A DNA stretch of 41,489 bases from Deltaproteobacteria bacterium. GTDB lineage: Bacteria > Desulfobacterota > Desulfomonilia > Desulfomonilales > Desulfomonilaceae. A program made the position numbers and the translations under genes. The stretch lies in the NCBI GenBank assembly GCA_021777225.1, contig JAJYDQ010000039.1, positions 1 to 41,489 of the forward strand, written 5' to 3'. The notes below the pieces were generated by a model. The model saw only the letters and a list, made by a program, of their open reading frames with translations, had not been told where the DNA came from and ran no database searches. Position 1 is the first letter of the stretch. Each line of letters starts with the position of its first letter. Below are positions 1,195 to 41,489 of the stretch, piece after piece.

Positions 1195-2193
1195 CTAGAA
1201 AATCAATTCGGCTGAAGCTGCGACAGACAACTGATCCGACCAGACCCTGGATCCACTAAACGAAAAGTCTACGCTGAAGAAACTGTTTGTGAGCTGATGT
1301 CCGCCGTTGGTTATGATGCGTTTGAAATCCACATCAATCAGCGCCTTGATATTTTGGCGAATCATTAATGAAGCTGTCGCTTCAGCGTGCCAGCAATGAC
1401 CGCTGGTGTTTTCGTTTGTGATGCGCTCGCCTTCCCTGAGCAGATGCAGATCCTGGTTCTTCGCTGTAACCACAGCATAATCCAGCGTGACGGTGAGGTC
1501 CGTAGTAGGCAGGGACCTGAATATCCCCGCCGTATTCACCTTGGTGTTTATTAAAGCCCCCAGATAGTACTGATAAAACGTTTGGTCAAATTCTATACCT
1601 TCACCCGGCAGGGCGGTGTTATACCCGTCAAGACTTCCTTGATAGCCATCGTGCGTGACAAACGAGAACGTCTGGTATCGTGTTCCCACCACGGGCTGGA
1701 CAATCCTGAACAAGGAAACATCCGGTTTGAAAAGGATCCTGAAGTCAATTAGCCACGATCTCTTGAGCTTACTTTTGGACTCACTGAAAACCGATTTTTG
1801 GGAAGGCTGGTCCTCTTGGTCCCAATCACTATCCTGCATGTTGGCCCGACCCTCCTGGTTTATATTTCCCCAAGCGTCAAGCTGCGCCGTCCAGAAACTG
1901 GAATTGTAGATATAATCTCCACCATAGAACCACTGATCTATAGGAAATTCCAGCCGACTTAATGGGTTCTGTTCAGGAGGGAATGGATTGGGGAATTGAT
2001 AGGATGTGTAACTGTTGAAGAACTTTTTTACGCCGATTGAATACTGCCAGTTCGCGGCCCTTACGCGCGAAACAAGATCTGAAGCCATATCCAGGGGATC
2101 AGCGTATTGAGCCGCCGCAGGGAACGGCTGAGCGCACGAATAGATAAAAATTAGGATAGTCGCCAAAATGGCGGCCCCTATTCGAGAAATCAT
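1195..2193 (-). CDS. Omptin-family outer-membrane aspartyl protease
   Basis: A 332-residue protein that aligns by eye with E. coli OmpT. Omptins are ten-stranded barrels whose surface active site pairs Asp83/Asp85 with Asp210/His212 (OmpT mature numbering) and cleaves extracellular peptides, often at basic residues. The counterparts here are Asp121 and Asp123 in MQDSDW and Asp248 and His250 in QDLH, followed by the conserved EGERIT stretch (OmpT DPGKRIT). SRLEFPI at 79-85 matches OmpT SQLDWKF. A signal peptide covers about residues 1-29 (cleavage after AAAQ); a Cys at 20 makes a lipoprotein possible but less likely. The C-terminal residue is Phe, as expected for BAM substrates. It stands alone and converges with the barrel gene at 199. 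The family call is firm; substrate specificity cannot be read. Confidence 0.85.
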   Translation of the reverse strand: MISRIGAAILATILIFIYSCAQPFPAAAQYADPLDMASDLVSRVRAANWQYSIGVKKFFNSYTSYQFPNPFPPEQNPLSRLEFPIDQWFYGGDYIYNSSFWTAQLDAWGNINQEGRANMQDSDWDQEDQPSQKSVFSESKSKLKRSWLIDFRILFKPDVSLFRIVQPVVGTRYQTFSFVTHDGYQGSLDGYNTALPGEGIEFDQTFYQYYLGALINTKVNTAGIFRSLPTTDLTVTLDYAVVTAKNQDLHLLREGERITNENTSGHCWHAEATASLMIRQNIKALIDVDFKRIITNGGHQLTNSFFSVDFSFSGSRVWSDQLSVAASAELIF

Positions 2194-26774: not shown

Positions 26775-27968
26775 TTGCCAGAAGGACCAGGAAACAACAC
26801 AAAACTTAAAATCACTATTGCCATCATAGTAGCGACTGTATTGGTCATAGCTGGGGGCGTTTACTATTTTTTGACCATGGGAAATGTATCTACCGACGAC
26901 GCGTATATTGATGGTCACATTTTTTCGGTAACTCCAAGAGTGGCTGGCTACGTGATCTCTGTTGATGTGGACGACAACCAGGAAGTTAAAGAAGGAGACG
27001 CTTTACTTTCACTAGACCCTACCGAATATGAAGTAGCGTTAGCTGAGGCACGTGCAAACCTTGCAGAGTCTGAGTCTACTCTGACATCTCTGGAATTGGG
27101 AGTGCCCCTTGAACTTTCCCAAACAGAGCAAAAAGTCCGGGGGGCTGAATCCGAACTAAACACACTGACCAAGAACCTTGAGACTAAAAATAAGGATGAA
27201 GATGCCGCGACCCAGGATTTGCTTCGCGCTCAGGCCGAGCATGATAAGGCTCTTATTGATTTTAAACGAATGGATGAGTTGCTTAAAGGTCAGGCTATCT
27301 CACAATCCACGATGGACGAGGTGGAAACCAGAGTCCAAACAACTTTAGCTCAGGTGAATGCTGCTCGAGCGAGAGCAGAAGCGATAAGGAAGCAAAAGGC
27401 CGCCCTGCTTTCCGACAAAGACCGATTAGAAGCAAATATTCGCTTGGCCTCCACTGGTGAAGACCAGGCTAAAATTAGATCCAGACAGGTAGAAGCGCAA
27501 CAAGCCCGTGTTGAATTGGCCAAAGCAAGACTTCGCCAGGCTGAACTCAATCTCGGTTATACAAACATTAAATCTCCGACCCATGGTTTTGTAACCAGAA
27601 AAAAGGTTGAGCCAGGTCAGATGGTTTCCCGGGGGCAACCCCTCATGGCGATTGTTCCTTTGAATCCGAAGCTAATCTGGGTAACCGCCAATTTTAAAGA
27701 AACCGAATTGAAGGGCGTTAAACCAGGTCAACCGGTGAGCATTGAAGTGGATACTTATCCAGGAATAAAATTCAAGGGCAAAGTTGATTCGATTATGTCG
27801 GGCACGGGGGCGGCTTTTTCGCTTTTTCCCCCTGAGAACGCGACGGGTAATTATGTAAAAATAGTTCAACGCATACCTGTAAAAATAATGTTCGAAACCA
27901 AGGAACCCAATCCCTTCCCTGCTCTTAGAATCGGAATGAGTGTGATCCCTACGATTTACACTGATTGA
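26775..27968 (+). CDS. emrA: HlyD/EmrA-type membrane fusion protein of a multidrug efflux pump
   Basis: Periplasmic adaptor of an EmrAB-TolC-like exporter. The 397 residues contain one N-terminal membrane helix (about 13-33), then the DDAYIDGH motif and first lipoyl half-domain (VAGYVISVDVDDNQEV), a long coiled-coil hairpin (about 85-250), the second lipoyl half (YTNIKSPTHGFV) and a beta-barrel domain. It starts at TTG 26775; there is no in-frame ATG nearby and no strong ribosome site. The transporter gene follows 10 bases later. Promoter and candidate operator lie just upstream. Confidence 0.92.
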   Translation: MPEGPGNNTKLKITIAIIVATVLVIAGGVYYFLTMGNVSTDDAYIDGHIFSVTPRVAGYVISVDVDDNQEVKEGDALLSLDPTEYEVALAEARANLAESESTLTSLELGVPLELSQTEQKVRGAESELNTLTKNLETKNKDEDAATQDLLRAQAEHDKALIDFKRMDELLKGQAISQSTMDEVETRVQTTLAQVNAARARAEAIRKQKAALLSDKDRLEANIRLASTGEDQAKIRSRQVEAQQARVELAKARLRQAELNLGYTNIKSPTHGFVTRKKVEPGQMVSRGQPLMAIVPLNPKLIWVTANFKETELKGVKPGQPVSIEVDTYPGIKFKGKVDSIMSGTGAAFSLFPPENATGNYVKIVQRIPVKIMFETKEPNPFPALRIGMSVIPTIYTD

Positions 27969-27978
27969 CCAGCTTTAC

Positions 27979-29535
27979 ATGGCGCAATCGCAACAACACA
28001 AGTTATTGATAACGTTAGCGGTAATGATCCCGACTCTTATCGAGATCCTTGACACCAGTGTTGCAAATGTTTCATTAAAACACATTCAGGGGAGCCTGGC
28101 GGCAGGGCAGGAAGAAGTAACCTGGGTATTAACCTCGTACTTGGTCGCCAATGCGATAGTAATCCCCATGAGTGGTTGGCTCGCGCGTGTAATGGGGCGA
28201 AAACGGTATTTACTTCTTTCGCTGGTGGTGTTCACAATCAGTTCCGCTCTCTGTGGCGCAGCCACGAGCCTCAACGAGATAATCCTATTTAGAATTGTTC
28301 AAGGCATGGGCGGTGGGGCATTGCAACCTATGTCTCAAGCCATACTTCTTGAAACATATCCACCCAATCAACGAGGCCTAGCTATGGGGATCTTCGGAAT
28401 GGGGATAGTTGTCGGTCCGATCTTGGGACCTCTCGTTGGTGGTTATTTGACCGACAATTATTCGTGGCGGTGGATTTTTTATATAAATGTACCGTTCTGC
28501 GCCCTAGCTCTTTATATGATAACCAGTTTTGTATTCGACCCACCGTTTCAGGAGCGGCGTGAAAAGGGAGAAAAAGTCGATTACGTTGGACTGATGTTGC
28601 TGGCAATTGGTCTGGGAAGTCTTCAGATCGTCCTGGACAAAGGTGAACTCAAGGATTGGTTCAGCTCTAATCAAATTGTCATTTTGACTGCTGCGGCCAT
28701 CGTCGCTTTGACGGCTCTGGTTATTTGGGAACTTTACTGCGAGCGCCCAATAGTTGATTTAAGGATTTTCAGGGACCGAAGTTTTGCCACTGCTAATATA
28801 GTAATGTTTCTGGCTTTCTTTGCTTTTTTTGGATCTATTGTATTATTGCCGTTGTTTTTACAGACACTTATGGGATACACGGCGTATCTAGCTGGGTGGG
28901 TACTGGGACCGGGTGGCGCTATAGCGTTTATTATGCTCCCGTTCGTGGGAAAGATGACCGAGCGGATAGACGCCAGGATTCTACTTGCGGTGGGCCTGTT
29001 GATAAACGCTTATAGCCTCCATTACATGTCAGGATTTAATCTCCAGATCAATATCGAAACAGCTACGGTTTCAAGATTGATTCAGGGGATAGGTATGCCT
29101 TTCATTTTCGTTCCGTGCTCGTTTCTGGCTATGGCCTACGTGCCTAAAGAGAAGCTAAATAACGCTTCGGCCATTTTCAATCTTCTCAGAAACCTGGGCA
29201 GTTCGTTTGGGGTGGCCTTCGTGTCAACGCTCCTGGATCGCCGGGCCCAGTTTCATCAGGCGAGGTTGATAGAGAATTTCTATCCATCAAGTCCTGGATT
29301 TTCCTATCGACTCGATCAATTGCATCAGGCATTACAGGAAAAGCTTGGATCATTTAGTGACCTCAACTCCTTGGCTCTTGGATATTTTTACAAAGTACTT
29401 AACCAGCAAACTTTGCTGATGGCGTATTGTGATGTGTTTTACGCTCTGGCGGTGATTTTTGTGTTACTGGTCACTATTGTATGGGTGATTCGAAAACCTC
29501 CGGTGGGACGGAAATTCGAAATGCCTTCAGAATGA
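27979..29535 (+). CDS. emrB: DHA2-family (EmrB/QacA) MFS drug transporter, 14 TM
   Basis: Proton-coupled inner-membrane exporter that works with the preceding adaptor. The 518 residues start with LIEILDTSVANVSL (the DHA2 motif with the conserved Asp in TM1), then GWLARVMGRKR (MFS motif A), RIVQGMGGGALQPMSQ and the motif C region GIVVGPILGPLVGG, and 14 predicted membrane helices. Start ATG 27979 is 10 bases after emrA. It ends 17 bases before the convergent MATE gene stop, where only a very short repeat could serve as a terminator. Substrate unknown; a role in exporting the product of the neighbouring synthase locus is possible but unsupported. Confidence 0.93.
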   Translation: MAQSQQHKLLITLAVMIPTLIEILDTSVANVSLKHIQGSLAAGQEEVTWVLTSYLVANAIVIPMSGWLARVMGRKRYLLLSLVVFTISSALCGAATSLNEIILFRIVQGMGGGALQPMSQAILLETYPPNQRGLAMGIFGMGIVVGPILGPLVGGYLTDNYSWRWIFYINVPFCALALYMITSFVFDPPFQERREKGEKVDYVGLMLLAIGLGSLQIVLDKGELKDWFSSNQIVILTAAAIVALTALVIWELYCERPIVDLRIFRDRSFATANIVMFLAFFAFFGSIVLLPLFLQTLMGYTAYLAGWVLGPGGAIAFIMLPFVGKMTERIDARILLAVGLLINAYSLHYMSGFNLQINIETATVSRLIQGIGMPFIFVPCSFLAMAYVPKEKLNNASAIFNLLRNLGSSFGVAFVSTLLDRRAQFHQARLIENFYPSSPGFSYRLDQLHQALQEKLGSFSDLNSLALGYFYKVLNQQTLLMAYCDVFYALAVIFVLLVTIVWVIRKPPVGRKFEMPSE

Positions 29536-29552: not shown

Positions 29553-30956
29553 CTAGTCTAAAACATTGATGGTTTTCCAGTGTCCCGATCTGAATCTAAG
29601 CCAAAAAACCGTTCCAATTACTATTACGTATATCAACATCCAGATCCAGGCGGCAAATATACCCATCCCCAGATACTTGGTCATTATATAGACGGGCGGG
29701 ACAAATAATATCCATGCGATCACTACTTGCGCCCACATTGTAAACTTGGTGTCTCCGGCGCCCTTCAGCGCTCCGTTGAATATTATGAAAACTGTATCAA
29801 ATAGAGTGTATGCTCCTATTATACGAACAAGAATGACGCCTTTATCGATCAATAGTTGGAAATTATTAATTGTATCTTGGTGTGGTTTGAAAAGACGTAA
29901 TAGTAAATCCGGAGCCGCCCAAAAAAACGCAGCGACCAGCGCAGTGTATGACAGGGCGAGAACAAGTGCGCATAACACACGCTTCTGAGCTATATCGGGT
30001 CGTTTTCTACCGATGTATTCGCCAACAATAGCGCTAGTGGCTACTGACATCCCTACCATGGGGAGAAAAGAAAGAGTTTCAACGCTGAGGGCAATGTTTG
30101 TAGCCGCAAGATCTATTTCACCTAGTTTTCCCACGATGAGCACGAAAGCGGTAAATGATCCTACGTCCAGAATAAATTGAGCCCCCGCAGGTAATCCAAA
30201 CTTTAAAAGCGCCATAAAAATCCTGCTATTTAAAGGCGCCTCTCTTCTAGTCCGGTATTTTAACTGGTATTGCGGGCTCAGGAAAATGTAGGCCCAATAA
30301 ATCGTTGGTATGAAGTTCGTCACAGCGGTAGCAATGCCAGCCCCTTTGATACCTAACTCAGGAAAACCAAAATTCCCAAATATGAGAAGGTAATCAAGCA
30401 CAACGTTTCCGATATTTCCAACGAGGTTTCCGATCAAAACATATGAGGTTTGACCTCTACCAGAAAAAAAAGAAGACAACGCGGCGTTAAGGGGAAGTGA
30501 AACTCCACTATACATAAGGATGGTAAAATATTGTTTCTCCAATTCTACGACACATGGCTCGTGGCCGGTATTTCCCAATATCCAGCGGCCTAGAGGAATA
30601 AAAGCCACTATTAACGGTACGGAAAAGGCTGAGAGCCATATTCCTTGCCAGACCGCTTTGGAACAACCTAACCTGTCACCTGCTCCATGACTCTGAGCCA
30701 CGAGAGTATTTGTATATTGAGCTGTTCCCTGAAAAAAACAGCAGATTGTGAAGTATGTGATTCCACCTGGAGTCGCCGCTGCTACATCGTCCATGCTGTG
30801 CCAGGACAGCATTAATCGATCGACAAACAACGCCAATGTTAAAGAAGACGTGGAAAGTATCAGGGGAACAGCAATACGTAGGACTTCGGAGTAACCATCC
30901 AGCACGTTTTCGACAAGGCTGGAGACTGGATTGTTTTGTTCTGACAGAAGACCCAA
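29553..30956 (-). CDS. MATE-family (NorM-like) multidrug efflux protein
   Basis: Cation-coupled exporter of organic cations or other small molecules. The 467-residue protein has twelve predicted membrane helices, the MATE N-lobe start (IAVPLILSTSSLTLALFVDRLML), FSGRGQTSYVL and LDYLLIFGNFGFPELGIKGAGIAT, which is a diagnostic MATE segment. It begins with TTG 30956 and has no clear ribosome site; the first internal ATG is too far in to be the start. It lies 125 bases after ihfA on the same strand and may be read with it or with the synthase operon upstream. Confidence 0.9.
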   Translation of the reverse strand: MGLLSEQNNPVSSLVENVLDGYSEVLRIAVPLILSTSSLTLALFVDRLMLSWHSMDDVAAATPGGITYFTICCFFQGTAQYTNTLVAQSHGAGDRLGCSKAVWQGIWLSAFSVPLIVAFIPLGRWILGNTGHEPCVVELEKQYFTILMYSGVSLPLNAALSSFFSGRGQTSYVLIGNLVGNIGNVVLDYLLIFGNFGFPELGIKGAGIATAVTNFIPTIYWAYIFLSPQYQLKYRTRREAPLNSRIFMALLKFGLPAGAQFILDVGSFTAFVLIVGKLGEIDLAATNIALSVETLSFLPMVGMSVATSAIVGEYIGRKRPDIAQKRVLCALVLALSYTALVAAFFWAAPDLLLRLFKPHQDTINNFQLLIDKGVILVRIIGAYTLFDTVFIIFNGALKGAGDTKFTMWAQVVIAWILFVPPVYIMTKYLGMGIFAAWIWMLIYVIVIGTVFWLRFRSGHWKTINVLD

Positions 30957-31081: not shown

Positions 31082-31369
31082 TTAGGAGGGTATATTCACA
31101 GTCTTTTTAAGAACAGGGGAATATTTCCAGGTGACAACTTTTCGAGCATCCAAAATTAATTCATCTCCGGTTTGCGGATTGCGTCCTCTTCTGGAATTTT
31201 TCTCCTTGACTGTCCATTTCCCGAATCCCGAGATCATGACATCTTCCCCATTGATAAGACAATCTTTAACGATATCCAGAAGTTTTTCCACAATCTCTGT
31301 GGCTTCCCCCTTCATAAAACCGCAATCATCCGCTATCTTCTTTGCGATATCGGCTTTTGTAAGCGTCAT
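31082..31369 (-). CDS. ihfA: Integration host factor alpha subunit (HU/IHF family)
   Basis: Nucleoid protein that bends DNA at specific sites as a heterodimer with IhfB. The 95 residues contain LTKADIAKKI at the start, ISGFGKWTV and the beta-arm RGRNPQTGDEL, which carries the Pro that intercalates into DNA. Similarity is higher to IhfA (TGEDIPITARRVVTF) than to HU. Start ATG 31369 has GGGAGG 6 bases upstream; the frame could be opened at GTG 31375 but that codon touches the ribosome site. It is separated from the radical SAM gene by 144 bases with a hairpin and T run. Confidence 0.93.
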   Translation of the reverse strand: MTLTKADIAKKIADDCGFMKGEATEIVEKLLDIVKDCLINGEDVMISGFGKWTVKEKNSRRGRNPQTGDELILDARKVVTWKYSPVLKKTVNIPS

Positions 31370-31393
31370 ATACACCCTCCCAACCAGTTAAAA

Positions 31394-31513: not shown

Positions 31514-33070
31514 TTAACCGTGCGCAACTGGTAACGGTTCCGCAAATCTTTTTACAAGCCTGCCCGAATAAGATTGGCTGACCAGGGCCTTTCTAATCAG
31601 ACCCGCTGCGTCCGCGGGTTTGAATATAAAACGGATCCCGGTTTTTATTCCAATTACATTCCCGAATCGCATGTACTTCCAATACGGCCCCTTTAATCGA
31701 AGAAGTCTACAGATACCAGCTATAACTCTCGAAAAGGAAAGCATCTTTTCATCAAAACCAAGGTATATCTCCGGACATACTGCGGCAGCATGGAACATTT
31801 GAGAAACAGCTTCATCAAGATCGAGTTCCTCAGACATATACCAGACCTGATCCAATGGATTGGTCAGTCTATTCACAAAACCTTCCTTTATGGCCAGTTT
31901 CCACAAGCCTGTTCGAGGATAGAGACGCACTCCAATAAAGAATTGCGCTACGTGAGTAACGGCCCGACCATCTTTTTTAAGATTATTGAGCACAAAATCC
32001 AGAGATGTCTGAAGCGTCTCATTCGTCTCTCCCGGACCACCTATCATAAAAAACCACCAGACTGCGAATGCGGTTTTATTGAGGGCCTCGGCCGCCTCAA
32101 AGACATCCTTGCTTGTGAACCCCTTCCTGTAATTGGCCAACATAATGTCCGACGCGGATTCAGGAGTGATCATGAGGGATCTGAACCCAGCCTTCCACAT
32201 TAAATCCAGGTACCCTTTATCCAGGCCCTTGGGATGCACCCCCATAGCTGTGAATCGAGCCTTCCATGGCCGTCTTATTATTTCTTCCAGGATTGACACC
32301 GAATGATCAATCGGATCATTAAATACTGAGTCAACAAATTCAAATGTATCAGGGGAGTATTTCTTGAGGGCATCCTCGATTTCGTCCACCACATCTATTG
32401 GATCCCTTAAACGCAAACGAACACCTTCAAGTGATTGATTGTAGGTGCAATACACGCACTGTCGCCTACAACCTCTTTTCGTTTGAATATTGTAGGCGGC
32501 CCCAATCCTCCGATAAGATGATGTGTCAACCCACCTACCGATATCCGGGGCACGGCTAACAAATCCATTCATCACAGGCGGAATCAAATCAAAGACCCCA
32601 TTAACCAAGCGACCCACCCCCGGTATCTTGACCACTTCCTTACCATTCCCTATACATTCCAACAAAGTAGTAAAAGGCCCTTCTCCATCAGAAACTACTA
32701 CATAGTCGGCCTTCAACAATTTAAGCACAGCCTCGGGCGCTAAACTGACGGCGGAACCACCCACGACTATAGGACAGTCAATCAAACGTCTGATTTTTTC
32801 AAACAACTCAAGTGTGTCAGGAATATAAGAAATCGGATGGAGCATGTTAGTATTGTCAATGTTCCTGACGGATACCCCAATTACCTCGGGTTCAAATGAC
32901 CGAATAGCAAGTTCAACCTCGTCGAATACCCTTTTTCTGGAAAAGCACAGGTCTAAAGCCTTAACTGTATGACCGGCGGCTTCTACAGCCGAAGCCACAT
33001 AGCACAAGCCAATAGGGGCCGCAGCGAGCATATCTCCTTTTCTGTTGCTGTTAATTAACAAGACTCTCAT
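31514..33070 (-). CDS. Cobalamin-type (B12-binding-domain) radical SAM protein
   Basis: The 518 residues from ATG 33070 have an N-terminal B12-binding-like domain (about 1-140) and a radical SAM core with the cluster motif C201-x3-C205-x2-C208 (RGCRRQCVYC). GGPGETNET follows in the SAM fold. The ATG overlaps the phosphopantetheinyl transferase stop codon (ATGA), so the two are translationally coupled; the 20 extra residues of the longer frame from 33130 are therefore not used. The classical D-x-H-x-x-G cobalamin motif is not evident in the N-terminal domain, so B12 binding is inferred from the family fold. Class B members are often methyltransferases or ring-forming enzymes acting on lipids, tetrapyrroles or hopanoids. 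Here it is probably a tailoring enzyme for the synthase product. Confidence 0.85.
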   Translation of the reverse strand: MRVLLINSNRKGDMLAAAPIGLCYVASAVEAAGHTVKALDLCFSRKRVFDEVELAIRSFEPEVIGVSVRNIDNTNMLHPISYIPDTLELFEKIRRLIDCPIVVGGSAVSLAPEAVLKLLKADYVVVSDGEGPFTTLLECIGNGKEVVKIPGVGRLVNGVFDLIPPVMNGFVSRAPDIGRWVDTSSYRRIGAAYNIQTKRGCRRQCVYCTYNQSLEGVRLRLRDPIDVVDEIEDALKKYSPDTFEFVDSVFNDPIDHSVSILEEIIRRPWKARFTAMGVHPKGLDKGYLDLMWKAGFRSLMITPESASDIMLANYRKGFTSKDVFEAAEALNKTAFAVWWFFMIGGPGETNETLQTSLDFVLNNLKKDGRAVTHVAQFFIGVRLYPRTGLWKLAIKEGFVNRLTNPLDQVWYMSEELDLDEAVSQMFHAAAVCPEIYLGFDEKMLSFSRVIAGICRLLRLKGPYWKYMRFGNVIGIKTGIRFIFKPADAAGLIRKALVSQSYSGRLVKRFAEPLPVAHG

Positions 33071-33834
33071 TGCGAAAGACCAGCCATTCTTTTTTGGAGC
33101 GATTTGTGGACATGCAGCCAATCCCGACATCCTGAACTCTTTATGACACTTAAAGAGAGAAATCCGGCGCCTTCATGCCGGGTAAAAGTCTGAACAGGAA
33201 GAAAACCCTGGATGCCCAATCTTTCGCTTAGGGCTCGCGAAATGGAAAAGTATGACTGGAAATATTCGTCACACGATCCTGAGGATACCAGGAAAAGATC
33301 TAAAGGATCACAAATATTAAAACCTATACCTAAAGCTTTTGTAAATGATTCTTTCGCTGACCATAGAAAACCAGCGGCGCCCGACAGAGAAAAGTTGTGA
33401 ACAGAAGCCAATGTATCTAGTTCACGGGGCTGAAAAGCTCTTTGAAAAGGATAGGGGGGTAAAAACTCCAGGGGAAAAGCCACATCTATCCCACAAGTCA
33501 AATTTGCATTGGCTATTGCTCCCCATACTTCACCAGAACCGTATGAGAAAGAGATCGAAAAATCTCCCCAGCCCAGAACTTCAAGGGTAGGCTTACCCAA
33601 ATAATCCGATCGAATATTCAATGCGAGATTGCTGGGGATCAAAAAATCTCTTCTGTGGCGGCTGTTGACTCCCATTGCCGCTACGAGACAGCGGGCGAGT
33701 TTGAGCTTGATCTTACGCCGATCTTCAGAACTTAGCCCCAGGGAACCATATGCAATACGGGTGTAGAACACTTTGGAACCTAGCGCCCCAAATTCCCAGG
33801 AGCGAATCGTTTCACATTTTCCTTGAACAATCAT
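33067..33834 (-). CDS. Sfp-type 4'-phosphopantetheinyl transferase
   Basis: Loads the phosphopantetheine arm of CoA onto carrier proteins. The 255-residue protein has the bipartite Sfp-type layout: GKPTLEV near 80-86, SISFSYG (SHSG in typical members), the metal motif at GIDVAF with Asp117, and the second half FLWSAKESFTKALG with Trp158, Lys161 and Glu162. The second metal residue of GIDVE, normally Glu, is Ala119 here, and the His of SHS is Phe96. It begins 4 bases after the synthase stop and overlaps the radical SAM gene, so it is the dedicated partner of the synthase by position. Catalytic competence is likely but not certain because of the Glu-to-Ala change. Confidence 0.8.
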   Translation of the reverse strand: MIVQGKCETIRSWEFGALGSKVFYTRIAYGSLGLSSEDRRKIKLKLARCLVAAMGVNSRHRRDFLIPSNLALNIRSDYLGKPTLEVLGWGDFSISFSYGSGEVWGAIANANLTCGIDVAFPLEFLPPYPFQRAFQPRELDTLASVHNFSLSGAAGFLWSAKESFTKALGIGFNICDPLDLFLVSSGSCDEYFQSYFSISRALSERLGIQGFLPVQTFTRHEGAGFLSLSVIKSSGCRDWLHVHKSLQKRMAGLSQ

Positions 33835-33838
33835 CAGA

Positions 33839-36800
33839 TTAACAGCGTGACCCGAAAATCCATCTCATCATGATCCCTTTCGCATGCATTACGACCGAAC
33901 CATTTTCGTCAAGACCTAAAGCGTCCCAGGTCACTCCCTTGTCATCACCGCCACGTTTCCTGGCTTGAACTGAAAGTTTCTCGCCGTGCCCAATCTTCCG
34001 AAAACAGTTTAACTCGTTGATTCCAAACGGGATAAGAATCTTCTTTTCTTTGTCGTCCCGCATTGCGAGATAAAAGTTTACCAAGTGCATGAAAGCTTCG
34101 AAAAGATACGGCGAAAATTGATATCGAGTCTTTAATGACTTACTGAAGTCCTCCGAATGCTTGTAAATAAACTCTCCTGTTATACACTCGTGTCCAGTAC
34201 CGTCGAGCCGCTCCATGACTCGATATCGTCCTTTAAGATCTGAACGGTCGGAATACCAATTGGTTACCTCCGAATGTTCCATTGGCCTGGTGTCAAGTTC
34301 CTTTTCGAGGACCGGGAAACCATCGAAGGACTTGTCAGGTTTCATCATTTTTCCGCCAAGAACTACCTGCGCCTTGAAATTCGAGTGATTTCTTTCAAGA
34401 ATTTTTCCAGATTCATCCTTCTCAACAAACATCATCGCATCGCATAAAACGATTCCACCCTTACTTGAAATCTTCCTGACCTGTATGTTGCTCTTAACGG
34501 GTTTGTGCGCAGGACACTCAATCATGTCAAGAAATCTGGCTTCTCTAATACCGGTAACGTTAAGGTAAGGGAACAGGACTTTTGCCCCTTCCATAAACGT
34601 CTCCAGCGCCATAATCGCCGAAACTATCGGATGCTTCAGAAACTTGAAGGGTTTGTGATCAGTAACCCACAAATCCTTTTCCTGATCAAATGTCCTATCG
34701 GCCTCGAGAGAACTCTGGTCCATGTTCAAATCCGTAACAACGTCTATCATGGGGAAAAGCGGCTTCGTGTATTGCGCCGGACCCGCGCTGAAGATGCTCT
34801 GGTCATGATTAGGGGCGGTTGTGTCGAGAGGAGCGCCACTCAACGACGGCAGGCTTTTCATAAACAATGTCCATACGTCTGACTTGGGAGCGTTGAACAA
34901 TTCCCGCAAAAACATTCCTGTCAGTTCATCAATAGTAATGTAAGAGGCATTCATACGGCGCATCAATTCCCGAACCTCTGAATTCTCCGCCATTCCTGCC
35001 CCTTCAATCGGAGGCAACATGAGGGCTTTGAAATTGATACGGGGATAAAAAGACTTCATGCTCCTCAACAATCCGGACATTAATCGGTTTCCAGCAGCGT
35101 AATTAACTTGTCCGGGATTACCCTGAACAGCCGCTGCCGACGACAGACCCACAAAAAAACGGAGGGATGCTTTGTCCAAAGCTTCAAAAAGATTCAGAAC
35201 CCCCAGAAATTTAACATTTACAACTGTTGTGAAATCAATTGGGGGCATTCGTTTGATAAAGTTGTCTCTTAGTAGCCCCGCTCCATGGATTACACCTGTT
35301 ATTTTTCCATGCGAACCAACGATTTCACTAATCGCCGAATTTACAGCTTTTGGATCAGTTATGTCCAACTGGTAATAGTGGGCTTCAATTCCTTCTGATC
35401 TTAGTTCCTCCAGTTTCTTTCTGGTCAGGGCTGTTCCGTCATTCTCACTGATCGAATCAACAGGCGTTCTTCCTACAAAAACCAACTTCGGATAAAAGGG
35501 GGCCAAAGAGCGACCCAATTCAGCGGAGATCCCAGAAAGACCTCCAGAAATGAGGATTACGTCATCTTTTCCAAGCTGTAATCCTGACGGTCCATCACCA
35601 ATCATAATTGCCGATGATTTTCCTTGAAGTGTGTAAAGTTCATTGTCCCGACAAATCAGTTGTATTGGCTTCTTGCTTCTATCCATCGCGCTTCTAAGAG
35701 CCATTCGGAGGTCGGTGTTTGGATCAAGAAAAACCGTTCTGAATTGAACTGACCCGAATTCCAGCCCAGCGCTAAGAAACAAGCCTGTGACGGCTTCCAG
35801 GAAAGCGCCTGGCGATTCAGCGCCAGCCTGGAGGCATACGGCCATCTTCTTGGTAGGCTTGTCCATAAATTTTTGAAAGATTTTGAAAAACCCTGTTAAG
35901 AAATCAGACAGGGCCACCGTGTCTGAATACCGTGTTTCGAAGGCCTCGTCTGTTACGAGAACCAGTCCTGCAAGTGATTCCAGATTCCGAATCGATTCAT
36001 TTATCTCCGCCAAGCCCGAGTCGGACGTTAGGTCCACTAGAGATTCTCCGTCCTCTGAACGTTTCGAGTTGTAAAAAAAGTGATCAATGTGGACCCCATA
36101 GTCCCTTCGAAAAATGTCCCCAGCTTGTTTACACAACTCCTCGGAAGAAGATGGACCCACTATGATAATTGAATCCAACGGACTAAGTTCCAAAGGAGCA
36201 AACGAGTCGTTGGAAATCAGAACCTCGTTAAAAGTCAGCCTTTTCAAGGTTTCTTCTTGAGCGATATCCAATCCCGCAACTTTACCGTGATCATTCTGGG
36301 CTGTGTCGTGCCTCTTTGAAGGCGCCTTCCTGGCGAGCACGGAATCGAGACGTTCCGCTAAATCTTTGATTGTTCGGACATCCATAAAGTCTTCCAGATC
36401 AATCTTGATGTTGAAGTGACTTTCCACCGCGTCCATGATCACCGGCAGTCTACTTGACCTTATGGCCAAATCTTCTCTTAGATCCATGTGGGGTTCTATT
36501 TCATCCCGTTCGTACCCGGTTACCTCCATTATGATACTGATTACAGCCTCTGTAGTATCCGTCTCTGCGAACTCTTTGTCCGGGTCTGGAATGATGGGAA
36601 CAGCGGCATCATGAATACCAGACGGTTTGAAAGATTCGGGTTCGTTGTAGGTCATGTCGATGGGCGCCATGTTCGGAACTGATCCGAAGAGGTCGCTTAG
36701 CATGTTGTTCAGCTCAGTCTCGCTAAATTGTGGGTCCTTTTTGTTTCTAATGCGCCTTAAGATCCCGGGCTTGATAAACTTGCCGAATGTTTCGATAACA

Positions 36801-39800
36801 AATGAGTTAATTTCATCCCGAATAATTTCACGGAAATCGTCATCTTTTGGCGGTGGGCTACAAGATATCGGCAATGTGGCTGTTTGGCGTTGTGCTGGAG
36901 CATTAACGGTTGGGGTTTGCGCTGTTGGAATTTCCCCAATTTCCCGAACATTTTCGACTTCCAGTGCTCCATTAGCATAAAGTTGAGCTAAAGCCGTCTT
37001 ATACATTAATGACTCAGCCGACGGAAGACAGGTTTGTATGCATGAAGCCTCCTCAATAGTATCCTGGATAAGATTTGATAAAATCTCTCGAGGCCCCACT
37101 TCCACAAATAGCCTTACTCCAAAATCATTCCAAAGAGTCTGTACGTTTTGCATCCAATGGACCGGTGACTCAAGGTGGGCCATGACTATTCGCTTGATTT
37201 CCTGAGTGTCATCGGGAAACGGACGCATAGTTGTGTTTGAAACCACAGGAAGTCTGGGTGGATGAAACTCGATCCCATCCACAAATTCCTTTAGTTCATC
37301 GTGAATACACCGCATGATCGGAGAATGAAACGCCATGCTGACTCGAAGCACTGTACTCCTGTAGCCCATCTCCTTGAGTTTTAAAGCTATGGATTTCGAT
37401 TGCTCCGTGCCACCTCCAATTACAATCTGCCGAGGAGAGTTTAGATTGGTTATAAATACATTCTCGAACTCCGACAGTATCTTGTTTATTAGGTCCAGAG
37501 GGGCGTCACATGCAACCATTACTCCGGGGTCGGCATTCATATTACAGGCTTTGTCCATGCAAAGAGCGCGTTTGTTTACAATACGAAAACCGTCTTCAAA
37601 TGAATAAACCCCGGCCAGACATAAAGCGGTTAGCTCTCCGAGGCTATGTCCGGCAAGCACGGCTGGTTGCACACCTAAAGAAATCAAGTATTGAACCATC
37701 GCGAACTCTAGTGTGAATAAAGCCGGTTGTTGCCATCTCGTCTTTTGAAGATCTTCCTCCCTGTCAAAAAACAGGAGTTTGAGTATATCGAATTCCGCTA
37801 CCTCGGCGGCTCTATTCATCCATTGTCTAACTACAGGGAAACCGTTATAAAGCTCATGCCCCATTCCAGCATAGTGGGATCCCTGGCCTGGAAATACAAA
37901 AGCTACATTTGGAGATGGACGATCCATAGGGCCAATGTAAATTCCCTGCCTTCCCAGCGCTTTTAAGCGTTTTCCACCTAAAGTGCAGTCGCTCGACCCA
38001 AAGTCTTCTTTTTTGACCAGTTGTAGCGCAGAGGCCTCAGATTGAGACAGGACAGCAATTCTGCATGTTTTTTCAGATATGTCGCGTTTAAAGAAATAAA
38101 TCCCTGCCGGAGGGGCGGCGGTTTTTGGCGTCGCCTTCGAAAGGCTAAGTTTTTCAGGCGATAGAGCAAAGATCACGTCCTTTTCAGCAAGAGATTCCTC
38201 GATTTGCACCACGTAATTCGATCCGCCGAAACCAAACGCGTTGACTTGCAATCTACGGGGATTACCGTTACTCAAATGCCAGTCCTCGGGTTGGTCAAAC
38301 ACCCGGAACCCCGCGGATTCAAGACCAATCTCAGGGTCAGGCTTTGAATAATTTAACGTAGGAGGATAAACACCTTCACGCATGGCCATTACCCCACGTA
38401 TAAGACTGTTTAACCCCGACGCTCCCAACGTGTGGCCTATTTGTGATTTGAATGAAGACAGCGTCGGCGCCTTATCGCCATTGAATACGGACTTCAGTCC
38501 CTGGACCTCCTCCATGTCCCCCTGTTTTGTGCTGGTAGCATGACATTCGATAAAATCAACTGACTCTGGGCCATAAGATGAATCCCTAAAGGAAGCGTTT
38601 ATGGCAATTTCCTGAGTAGTCCTTGATGATTCCACCATGCCCAAATTGTTGTTACTCGCGCCCATTGAAGTAATAAAGGCGAGGATATTGGCGCCGCGTT
38701 TCCTTGCTACCGACTCCCGCTCAATAATTATCATTGCGCCACCCTCTCCGAGGACCATCCCGTCGCGATCGGCGTCAAAAGGTCGGCTAGCTTCCACAGG
38801 AACGCGGTTCACTCCAGAAAGACCAGCAAGGGCGCCTAGGGCGGAAAACTCGAGAAAGTGCATAGGAGTTAGAAGTTCTTCACCTCCGCCCACAACTGCG
38901 GCATCTATGATTCCGTTTCTAATCATTTGATAGGCGCTATAAAGAGCGACAAGCGACGTTGCACAGGCTGCCGATACGGAAAAACTTGGCCCCATGAATC
39001 CGTACTTGTTGCAGATGAAGCCCCCGGCCGAACAGTTTAGGCGACCCAAAAGGGTCGTATCGTCGACTCCTAGTCTCTTTTTTCTGATCTCCTCGGAAAT
39101 AGCGAGTTCTTGATCAGGACTGAGATTCAAGACCATTTTGATATCGGACAATATTTTTCCAGAGCAACCCCGAATAATCATCTCTTCTAGTGTTGAGGCC
39201 GCCTCACCGGAATTTTGGGATATTAAAACAGCGATCCTTTCTCTGGGAATATCTGATTCAAGGATGCTGGACTCAAGGATTGCGTTTTGTGCAAGCCACA
39301 TTGTAACTTTTGTGGCTTCAGCCATTGTACGAAAATCCTGGGGAGGAATTCCCAGTTCTTTTCGCGAAACTTGTAGTTCCTGAAAAGCACCGAATCGGCA
39401 ATATGTCTTCTCAGGCGCTCTAGGGCGGGGATTGAAGAAAGTTTCGTGGTCCCATTTTTCGATCGGAACCGGGATTATTCCACTTTTTAGGGCCAGGCTC
39501 GCTTGAATTATTTGATCCGGGCTATTACCAAGAGAATTCACAACGCTCATACCGGTAATTGCTATTCTTTCAAACGTGTCTTTCTGTCGAATCGCACAAG
39601 TTCCAAGGTCGACTGCAATACCTTTTGTAGATCGCAAATTCTGAGAACTTTGAAAAAATCCAGAATCTAAACCGGGAAACTTCACCGGAAGTGGGTACTT
39701 GTCGTTTGGACCACCCAAAGCCAGTCCTTCGTGGATTTGCGCCAAAGAAAGCTGTTCGCCAATCGCGCCGGCGCAGGCCCCACTCATAAATTGGCCCTGT

Positions 39801-41489
39801 TCCAGGATTGTAGATTCATCCAGGGCACAACCATTGGGTTTGTCCATACCTTTTGCCGCTACAAACAGACTGCCTGCGCTCAAGGTTTCTATTGCCCTGC
39901 GAAAAGAGGCTTCATCTTCCGAGCCCGCGGCGAAATCCCGTTCAAGGGAACAAATAGCGTCAATCTTTGAAGTCTTTAGGGATCTTACCCTCAGGCCTGC
40001 GCTTGCGCCTGTTACAACTGTATCCCCTGGTTTTGCCCCAAGAATTTGTTCTTGGTATACATGGTTCAACGCTCCGGTTTCGACGATTTCTCTTGAAGCA
40101 AGATAGATCGTCCCCATTTGTAGGCCATCAGCGCCCAATATTGAAGCTATGACGGCAGTTAAGCGGTTGAAAAAACCACCAGCCATTATTAGACGGCAGT
40201 TTTCAAACAAGGATGGTTTTCGGTCCTTCAAATCCAGAGCCATCTGGATTAGGGTTATCGAACTATGCGTCCCAACATGTCCTCCAGACTCCTGGCCTTC
40301 CAGCACTACAAATTTGACTCCATTTTCCAAAGCCAATCGGAGGAGTTCATCGTTAGGAGCAATATATATCGTTTCTATTCCATCAGACATTAAAGCGCTA
40401 GCGTGAGACGGTTCACCAGCCGCTATGACAGCGAATCGAGGTTTCTTCGATTTTACCCACTCCAACTGTTCGTTACGATAGGGATTTTCCTGCAACGTTA
40501 TAATGTTTACCGCATAAGGTCGGTTACGCATTAACTCGTCCAAAGTGGCAAATTTCTGGGTAAGTGTCCCGGAATCCATCAATCCAAGGGCCAATGTCGG
40601 CAAAGCCCCGGCTTCCGAAACCTTCAGGGCAAATTCTGGGGAATCTGTGATCCACGACATGGCGCCTTGAATGAATGGATAAGTTGTCCCCATCTCCTTT
40701 GCTGCAGGCCCTTCAGCGAACAAAGAACACCTGTTGGAGGCGGAATCGATCACTTTTTTAGTGTCATTGATAAATTTTCGGATCGCGGCTTCGGTGGAAT
40801 CACCATATCGTCGAACAAAAGACGACGAGAACGCCGCCTCGATACCTAATGGTATTAGTTCATCCTTTCCAAAGTTACTTTTAAGGGGATTGATTGACTT
40901 TTCCAGGATGTGTTTTGCAAAAAACACCCTTTGCTCATCACGAACCTCGTCACCACAAAGAGAACCTGAGAAATCTCTTAAATCCTTTACCGAAAGTGAG
41001 TTGCCTTTGTTGAATACACGAACATTGACCCCAAGGGCGTTTCCAGTCAGTTCCGTGTGATCAGGCCGAATGTTCCCGATTCGTTTTTTCGCTTCTTCCC
41101 CTATTTCAGTAAGGTCTGTCAGCCAATGGAGACTTTCAAATACTATCCCTTCTACGCCGCAGCAAAGGAAAGCCGCTGCCGCCTCCGGGAAAGCTATGCC
41201 TCCCCAGATATAAATATCCTTTTCGGCCCCGGATTTTTCCAACATGGAAGAAACAGAAGAAAACAACGTAAGGATTGTCTCCGAACCCACAAATCCCGCA
41301 GATTCATTTCCCTTAATACCCAGTTTCCTTATTCGTGGGTGGTTGTTGATAATTTTCCCTATAACATCCACATCACTAAGGACAGGGATTATTTCGAGGT
41401 CTGAGCATAGTTCCCCAATTCGATACAAGATCGTGTCAATGTTTTCCAGTACGCATGTAGGTTCAAGTTCGACCCAAACCCAGATCGGA
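33839..41489 (-). CDS. Giant iterative polyketide/PUFA-type synthase (partial, N-terminus beyond window)
   Basis: A minus-strand open frame of at least 2549 residues that remains open to the right edge, so the true start lies outside. Numbering from TTG 41428: NPD-like remnant about 1-130 (NESAGFVG, His replaced by Phe46), helical linker, full NPD/PfaD-like enoyl reductase about 245-600 (ESGGHVG with His384), ketosynthase about 621-1065 with Cys822, His963, His999, acyltransferase about 1170-1480 with GHSLGE Ser1262 and AFHS His1368 (malonyl-type), one carrier domain with Ser1658, ketoreductase about 1955-2160 with GGLSGIS, Ser2097, Tyr2110, and C-terminal double-hotdog dehydratase with His2258 and Glu2444. 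The order resembles PfaA/PfaD secondary-lipid synthases fused into one chain, but with a single carrier. It heads an operon with its transferase and radical SAM partner. Product unknown. Confidence 0.88.
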   Translation of the reverse strand, partial: PIWVWVELEPTCVLENIDTILYRIGELCSDLEIIPVLSDVDVIGKIINNHPRIRKLGIKGNESAGFVGSETILTLFSSVSSMLEKSGAEKDIYIWGGIAFPEAAAAFLCCGVEGIVFESLHWLTDLTEIGEEAKKRIGNIRPDHTELTGNALGVNVRVFNKGNSLSVKDLRDFSGSLCGDEVRDEQRVFFAKHILEKSINPLKSNFGKDELIPLGIEAAFSSSFVRRYGDSTEAAIRKFINDTKKVIDSASNRCSLFAEGPAAKEMGTTYPFIQGAMSWITDSPEFALKVSEAGALPTLALGLMDSGTLTQKFATLDELMRNRPYAVNIITLQENPYRNEQLEWVKSKKPRFAVIAAGEPSHASALMSDGIETIYIAPNDELLRLALENGVKFVVLEGQESGGHVGTHSSITLIQMALDLKDRKPSLFENCRLIMAGGFFNRLTAVIASILGADGLQMGTIYLASREIVETGALNHVYQEQILGAKPGDTVVTGASAGLRVRSLKTSKIDAICSLERDFAAGSEDEASFRRAIETLSAGSLFVAAKGMDKPNGCALDESTILEQGQFMSGACAGAIGEQLSLAQIHEGLALGGPNDKYPLPVKFPGLDSGFFQSSQNLRSTKGIAVDLGTCAIRQKDTFERIAITGMSVVNSLGNSPDQIIQASLALKSGIIPVPIEKWDHETFFNPRPRAPEKTYCRFGAFQELQVSRKELGIPPQDFRTMAEATKVTMWLAQNAILESSILESDIPRERIAVLISQNSGEAASTLEEMIIRGCSGKILSDIKMVLNLSPDQELAISEEIRKKRLGVDDTTLLGRLNCSAGGFICNKYGFMGPSFSVSAACATSLVALYSAYQMIRNGIIDAAVVGGGEELLTPMHFLEFSALGALAGLSGVNRVPVEASRPFDADRDGMVLGEGGAMIIIERESVARKRGANILAFITSMGASNNNLGMVESSRTTQEIAINASFRDSSYGPESVDFIECHATSTKQGDMEEVQGLKSVFNGDKAPTLSSFKSQIGHTLGASGLNSLIRGVMAMREGVYPPTLNYSKPDPEIGLESAGFRVFDQPEDWHLSNGNPRRLQVNAFGFGGSNYVVQIEESLAEKDVIFALSPEKLSLSKATPKTAAPPAGIYFFKRDISEKTCRIAVLSQSEASALQLVKKEDFGSSDCTLGGKRLKALGRQGIYIGPMDRPSPNVAFVFPGQGSHYAGMGHELYNGFPVVRQWMNRAAEVAEFDILKLLFFDREEDLQKTRWQQPALFTLEFAMVQYLISLGVQPAVLAGHSLGELTALCLAGVYSFEDGFRIVNKRALCMDKACNMNADPGVMVACDAPLDLINKILSEFENVFITNLNSPRQIVIGGGTEQSKSIALKLKEMGYRSTVLRVSMAFHSPIMRCIHDELKEFVDGIEFHPPRLPVVSNTTMRPFPDDTQEIKRIVMAHLESPVHWMQNVQTLWNDFGVRLFVEVGPREILSNLIQDTIEEASCIQTCLPSAESLMYKTALAQLYANGALEVENVREIGEIPTAQTPTVNAPAQRQTATLPISCSPPPKDDDFREIIRDEINSFVIETFGKFIKPGILRRIRNKKDPQFSETELNNMLSDLFGSVPNMAPIDMTYNEPESFKPSGIHDAAVPIIPDPDKEFAETDTTEAVISIIMEVTGYERDEIEPHMDLREDLAIRSSRLPVIMDAVESHFNIKIDLEDFMDVRTIKDLAERLDSVLARKAPSKRHDTAQNDHGKVAGLDIAQEETLKRLTFNEVLISNDSFAPLELSPLDSIIIVGPSSSEELCKQAGDIFRRDYGVHIDHFFYNSKRSEDGESLVDLTSDSGLAEINESIRNLESLAGLVLVTDEAFETRYSDTVALSDFLTGFFKIFQKFMDKPTKKMAVCLQAGAESPGAFLEAVTGLFLSAGLEFGSVQFRTVFLDPNTDLRMALRSAMDRSKKPIQLICRDNELYTLQGKSSAIMIGDGPSGLQLGKDDVILISGGLSGISAELGRSLAPFYPKLVFVGRTPVDSISENDGTALTRKKLEELRSEGIEAHYYQLDITDPKAVNSAISEIVGSHGKITGVIHGAGLLRDNFIKRMPPIDFTTVVNVKFLGVLNLFEALDKASLRFFVGLSSAAAVQGNPGQVNYAAGNRLMSGLLRSMKSFYPRINFKALMLPPIEGAGMAENSEVRELMRRMNASYITIDELTGMFLRELFNAPKSDVWTLFMKSLPSLSGAPLDTTAPNHDQSIFSAGPAQYTKPLFPMIDVVTDLNMDQSSLEADRTFDQEKDLWVTDHKPFKFLKHPIVSAIMALETFMEGAKVLFPYLNVTGIREARFLDMIECPAHKPVKSNIQVRKISSKGGIVLCDAMMFVEKDESGKILERNHSNFKAQVVLGGKMMKPDKSFDGFPVLEKELDTRPMEHSEVTNWYSDRSDLKGRYRVMERLDGTGHECITGEFIYKHSEDFSKSLKTRYQFSPYLFEAFMHLVNFYLAMRDDKEKKILIPFGINELNCFRKIGHGEKLSVQARKRGGDDKGVTWDALGLDENGSVVMHAKGIMMRWIFGSRC

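Follow-up and report, generated by a model that had tools for sequence, protein, structure and literature searches.

The window, i.e. the whole stretch of DNA analysed (41,489 nucleotides), is contig C28 of a 4.04 Mb assembly composed of 153 contigs, whose host is a sulfate-reducer relative of Desulfomonile. One end of the window carries, on the minus strand, a large single-chain synthase, a Sfp-type phosphopantetheinyl transferase (PPTase), a B12-binding radical SAM protein (rSAM), a small DNA-binding protein and a MATE exporter (Table 1).

Table 1. Features of the synthase locus, in window coordinates.
Feature	Position	Strand	Evidence
MATE exporter	29553..30956	-	TIGR00797 over cut-off; follows rSAM in 8 related loci as well as here
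HU/IHF-like DNA-binding protein	31082..31375	-	PF00216; same place in several relatives
B12-binding radical SAM protein, CxxxCxxC, TIGR04072 relative	31514..33070	-	Pfam; profiles; structural model
Sfp-type phosphopantetheinyl transferase, divergent	33067..33834	-	PF01648; alignment
Single-chain iterative type I synthase, 5' end on C47	33839..41481	-	ORF, Pfam, family conservation, C47 join
Dehydratase (DH) double hotdog, His2278 and Glu2464	33863..34741	-	PS-DH; residues invariant
Ketoreductase (KR), Ser/Tyr/Asn intact	35057..35557	-	Pfam; alignment
Acyl carrier domain (ACP), IRSSRLP instead of the usual DSL motif	36347..36547	-	Pfam PF00550; motif kept in alignment
Acyltransferase (AT), GHSLG and AFHS (malonyl type)	37028..37900	-	Pfam; alignment
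Ketosynthase (KS), Cys842-His983-His1019 intact	38348..39571	-	Pfam; alignment
NPD enoyl reductase (ER), FabK type, GGHVG motif	39728..40693	-	Pfam NMO; TIGR03151 127 bits
Degenerate N-terminal NPD-like domain, AGFVG vs GGHVG in the active copy	40769..41481	-	hhalign to second NPD E=5e-6; alignment motif
Adapter remnant AGATCGGA, non-genomic	41482..41489		Contig-end comparison with C47

The synthase open reading frame (33839-41488, minus strand, in the ORF list) runs open into the contig end, whose last 8 bases are a remnant of a sequencing adapter. Contig C47 overlaps exactly the 126 bases preceding position 41482 and supplies the missing 5' end, with the start at C47:105622. The joined protein contains 2631 amino acids, of which about 2546, the C-terminal part, are encoded in the window. 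A divergent stand-alone reductase gene (TR, for thioester reductase) is located on C47, outside the window contig, and starts 233 bases upstream of the joined synthase gene. Downstream, the PPTase gene starts 4 bases past the synthase stop and the rSAM start overlaps the PPTase stop as ATGA. Both points had been described in an earlier note on this DNA, and the NPD, KS, AT, ACP, KR and DH domains that it assigned to a minus-strand synthase are all recovered by Pfam. The note had also called the synthase, its activator and the rSAM protein self-contained, a description that does not hold, since it overlooks that the synthase is cut off at the contig end, that a release reductase precedes it and that an exporter gene follows. 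The unit extends past those boundaries, the HU and MATE genes and the TR gene of C47 being also members. Elsewhere in the window, an EmrA/EmrB-like efflux pair (26775-29535, plus strand) lies next to the MATE gene, an arrangement found within the genus only, and an omptin-family outer-membrane protease-like protein is encoded at 1195-2193 (minus strand).

In a survey of 18 Desulfomonilaceae genomes, the synthase was found in 17 and TR in 15. The rSAM gene adjoins the synthase in 13 genomes, in ten of them with the PPTase gene in between, and MATE follows rSAM in 9 loci, window included. The order of the cassette is TR, synthase, PPTase, rSAM, HU (or a zinc-ribbon protein) and MATE, and cultured D. 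tiedjei DSM 6799 is among the genomes that carry it (G010:C1:3,874,475-3,889,600, with the zinc-ribbon protein before MATE). Since the synthase is so widespread in the family and the synthase-PPTase-rSAM order is kept in 10 of the loci retrieved, this gene arrangement is not due to chance. However, the absence of PPTase from the locus in three relatives counts against the cassette explanation. In one branch inside the Desulfomonile clade, TR is paired with a sulfotransferase (locus L142), which would fit a hydroxylated product. In another genome (G004), a contig (C3) holds a second TR together with PPTase and rSAM in the absence of a synthase, and a synthase copy without PPTase is present on C104.

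The synthase is constituted by a degenerate NPD, a FabK-type NPD, KS, AT, ACP, KR and a double-hotdog DH, in this order; no thioesterase domain was found in it. Pfam places NMO/NPD at residues 266-587 of the window ORF, KS at 640-1047, AT at 1197-1487, ACP at 1648-1714 and KR at 1978-2144, and PS-DH extends to residue 2542. The catalytic motifs are kept across 65 aligned synthases. A PfaD-type enoyl reductase was rejected for the NPD domain, because TIGR03151 (FabK) is the only NCBIfam model matching the domain at E<=1e-5, in a model set expected to include PfaD. KR, DH and a FabK-type ER are together sufficient to reduce the chain fully.

A profile search separates the synthase from PfaA (429 bits against TIGR02813, cut-off 1010), as it does from the nearest PKS model, NF045894 (PKS_plus_SDR; 501 bits, cut-off 1740). 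The earlier idea of a distinct lipid or polyketide pathway with its own activator and radical enzyme is supported by these scores, far under the thresholds, and by the retention of the PPTase and rSAM genes beside the synthase within Desulfomonilaceae; self-containment is the part that was lost. The synthase has one ACP, in place of the 4-6 tandem ACPs of PfaA-type proteins, and no KS-CLF or FabA-like DH/I partner was found in the synthase loci. With Pfa-type synthases (PfaA/PfaD, Types A-T of Shulse and Allen), the window synthase shares an iterative KS-AT-ACP-KR chain, ER, DH and a nearby PPTase. It differs in having all domains on a single polypeptide, with a tandem FabK-type NPD, a lone RSS-motif ACP and no CLF, in a PPTase without the His found in either published motif class, and in the attached TR, rSAM and MATE genes. 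Type S (PMC3098273) may overlap the window synthase family.

SgaAB, the PKS-derived sphingolipid cluster of Pseudomonas fluorescens MYb115 (PMC12134224), also contains an iterative type I synthase that feeds sphingolipid synthesis. Its partner is an SPT (SgaB), whereas ceramide synthase (CerS) is the usual neighbour among relatives of the window synthase and the window locus has neither. The spt/cerS/cerR system of Caulobacter (PMC11324152) resembles our case in that CerS/SPT-family genes are present near related synthases and in the window genome; however, Caulobacter uses an acyl-ACP ligase and an ACP with no type I synthase, and the window locus lacks CerS- and SPT-family genes. No paper on the synthase-CerS pairing or on a TR-rSAM-MATE cassette was found in a search of openly accessible literature. 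The nearest published systems there are the Pfa types (PMC3098273) and SgaAB (PMC12134224).

Enediyne PKSs have the order KS-AT-ACP-KR-DH-PPTase, and the window synthase shows the same order with the PPTase after it. Compared on this domain order alone, it differs by the extra tandem NPD and the separate PPTase, and no enediyne genes were seen.

The PPTase reads ISFS, without the His of NxSH, and GIDVA, without the Glu of DxE. The NxSH His is replaced by Phe in 9/9 aligned PPTases, and neither (F/S)NxSH nor hShxH is found. According to the alignments, the RSS-type ACP and the divergent PPTase motifs both hold in distant members of the family. These sequences suggest that ACP and PPTase could be a co-adapted pair.

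The rSAM protein has the B12-binding domain, the radical SAM domain and the CxxxCxxC motif of cobalamin-dependent methylases. Its structural model matches TsrM best (E 1e-30), followed by OxsB, MgmA and CysS, and from this fold we infer that the protein may act as a methylase. Against methylation, B12 radical-SAM relatives also perform ring and C-C chemistry. The nearest curated model is TIGR04072, a ladderane-cluster protein, with 303 bits and an equivalog cut-off of 360. TIGR04072 proteins and TsrM share the B12-binding plus radical SAM fold with the window protein; the partner of the latter is a type I synthase, while that of TIGR04072 proteins is a FAS II cluster. A second TIGR04072-like gene of the genome (C24) has no lipid neighbours, and a ladderane cluster was discarded. 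The D. tiedjei synthase locus includes a SAM synthetase gene.

TR carries the catalytic S-Y-K residues and, in its predicted structure, the R-domain fold. Against the PDB it comes closest to the R domain of myxalamid (E 1e-17), then to a PKS thioreductase from Streptomyces coelicolor (E 2e-16); ketoreductases and epimerases rank behind (about 2e-13), which lowers its candidacy as a CerR/epimerase-type ketoreductase. NAD_binding_4 outscores Epimerase in the profile search, and the score against the thioester-reductase model TIGR01746 is 79 bits, below the cut-off of 213. Judged by the model, TR appears closest to the release R domains of PKS/NRPS.

A wider scan of 85,000 species genomes yielded 78 synthase loci, spread over anaerobes of Desulfobacterota, Nitrospirota, Verrucomicrobiota, Lentisphaerota, Planctomycetota and Aminicenantes. 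The distribution is patchy (10/297 genomes in Desulfobacterota). Outside Desulfomonilaceae, the synthase gene lies mostly directly behind a gene of GNAT family f2, often accompanied by SPT and ABC-exporter genes. This family is most likely the bacterial ceramide synthase: a Roseomonas homologue (34.7%) occupies the place of cerS in a Caulobacter-like sphingolipid gene order and f2 adjoins SPT across Desulfobacterota; a PDB comparison of f2 gave no match. The CerS gene was found in 40 of the 60 usable loci, those with >1.5 kb of sequence upstream of the synthase, and mostly immediately upstream. Other neighbours are SPT, an AMP-ligase-ACP-SPT fusion, a CerR-like SDR, an ABC exporter, PAP2, an EptA-like transferase, a sulfotransferase and other radical SAM genes. 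The Desulfomonilaceae-type rSAM is not conserved beside the synthase in these lineages; the conservation of PPTase and rSAM as neighbours of the synthase, proposed in the earlier note as a check, is therefore limited for rSAM to the family. In the KS-AT tree, a clade with CerS, SPT and ABC genes forms the sister group of the Desulfomonile clade, and CerS-linked loci also occur outside both. The fused protein, which joins an acyl ligase, an ACP and an SPT-like domain, is encoded at L146:21040-24480, with similar genes in L094, L106, L108, L109, L116 and L137. Two further conserved neighbours in sphingolipid-type loci, f7 (L149:8895-9740) and f9 (L131:21178-22215), gave no Pfam match.

The window genome encodes an SPT-like protein on C95 (522 bits with the SPT model; BioF 385, Kbl 383) and a CerS on C122, both unlinked to the synthase. 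CerS homologues are present in 16/18 Desulfomonilaceae genomes and, among Desulfobacterota, in 9/10 synthase-bearing versus 70/287 other genomes (Fisher p 4e-5, with no kinship correction). On C122 (L168:7791-12055), a B12 radical SAM gene lies on either side of the CerS gene, one of the two with DUF4070; G004 has the same trio, and a DUF4070-type gene is also found beside CerS and synthase in L082 and L096.

Our preferred explanation, which we consider somewhat probable, is that the locus constitutes the 3' part of a Desulfomonilaceae lipid cassette. The divergent PPTase would activate the divergent ACP of the synthase, and the single chain would elongate iteratively on malonyl units, each round being fully reduced by KR, DH and the FabK-type ER, so that a long saturated acyl chain would build on a single ACP. 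Because the synthase has no thioesterase, release is assigned to TR, which would free the chain as an aldehyde or alcohol. The rSAM protein would add at least one methyl group to the chain or to an attached group, and the MATE protein would export the product. Against this explanation count that lipid export is not typical of MATE proteins and that TR lies off the window contig and scores under the thioester-reductase cut-off. Since the synthase family is otherwise linked to the genes for CerS and SPT, a lipid of the envelope is the most likely product, rather than a diffusible antibiotic.

A rather unlikely alternative is that the synthase makes the acyl chain of a sphingolipid, the unlinked CerS or Spt taking it off the ACP and TR and rSAM acting on a branch or at a later step. 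The frequency of CerS in the family, the SPT score, the adjacency of SPT orthologues and CerS in the phylum, the CerS genes at synthase loci and the co-occurrence just mentioned, which ignores kinship, all speak for it. In Desulfomonilaceae, however, it is the release reductase and not CerS or SPT that is near the synthase, and chains from an ordinary FAS II can also serve Spt and CerS. That rSAM closes rings or makes C-C bonds, as in ladderanes or tetraethers, and adds no methyl groups seems very unlikely: although the nearest curated model is named for a ladderane-cluster protein and ladderane-like clusters are also present in Desulfotalea (PMC2649909), the score is below the equivalog cut-off, the best structural match is a methylase and no FAS II ladderane-type cluster lies nearby.

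Two other readings concern the synthase itself. The KS-AT-ACP-KR backbone and the PfaA-like KR motif would also suit a secondary lipid synthase of the PUFA or heterocyst-glycolipid type, the comparison drawn in the earlier note, and fused PfaD-PfaA genes are known (PMC13291983), but the low PfaA score, the one ACP, the FabK-type ER, the missing partners and a complete reduction set, which argues against polyunsaturation, make this quite improbable. That the synthase is the core fatty acid synthase of the cell is the least probable explanation of all. Shulse and Allen proposed such a role for the Type S synthase in Desulfobacterium autotrophicum (PMC3098273), and no FabZ scores above cut-off in the window genome. 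This idea is weakened by a FabMG/FabA-like reductase-hotdog fusion (529 amino acids) on C56 (L183:8511-10100); moreover, dedicated rSAM, TR and MATE proteins are ill-suited to primary metabolism and the family is patchy.

Returning to the lipid cassette, a broader proposal can be made tentatively, as a possibility open to considerable doubt: a widespread, so far undescribed family of one-chain synthases, each with an ACP-PPTase pair of its own, might supply special long acyl chains for sphingolipid-type envelope lipids in anaerobes from several phyla, CerS itself releasing them. In Desulfomonilaceae, TR might have taken over the release and a B12 methylase been added, which would yield a new radical-tailored long-chain aldehyde or alcohol lipid. 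Co-abundance has linked Desulfobacterota and other groups to the unusual sphingolipids of anoxic waters (PMC11334938). The association between synthase and ceramide genes points to a possible undescribed route to unusual membrane lipids, and the synthase linked to CerS in these lineages would let the origin of the sphingolipid chain be tested directly. The RSS-type ACP and its matching PPTase may form an orthogonal carrier-activation pair. In Desulfomonile, the synthase together with the radical methylase, the release reductase and the exporter leads us to predict that a cultured strain makes a new lipid.
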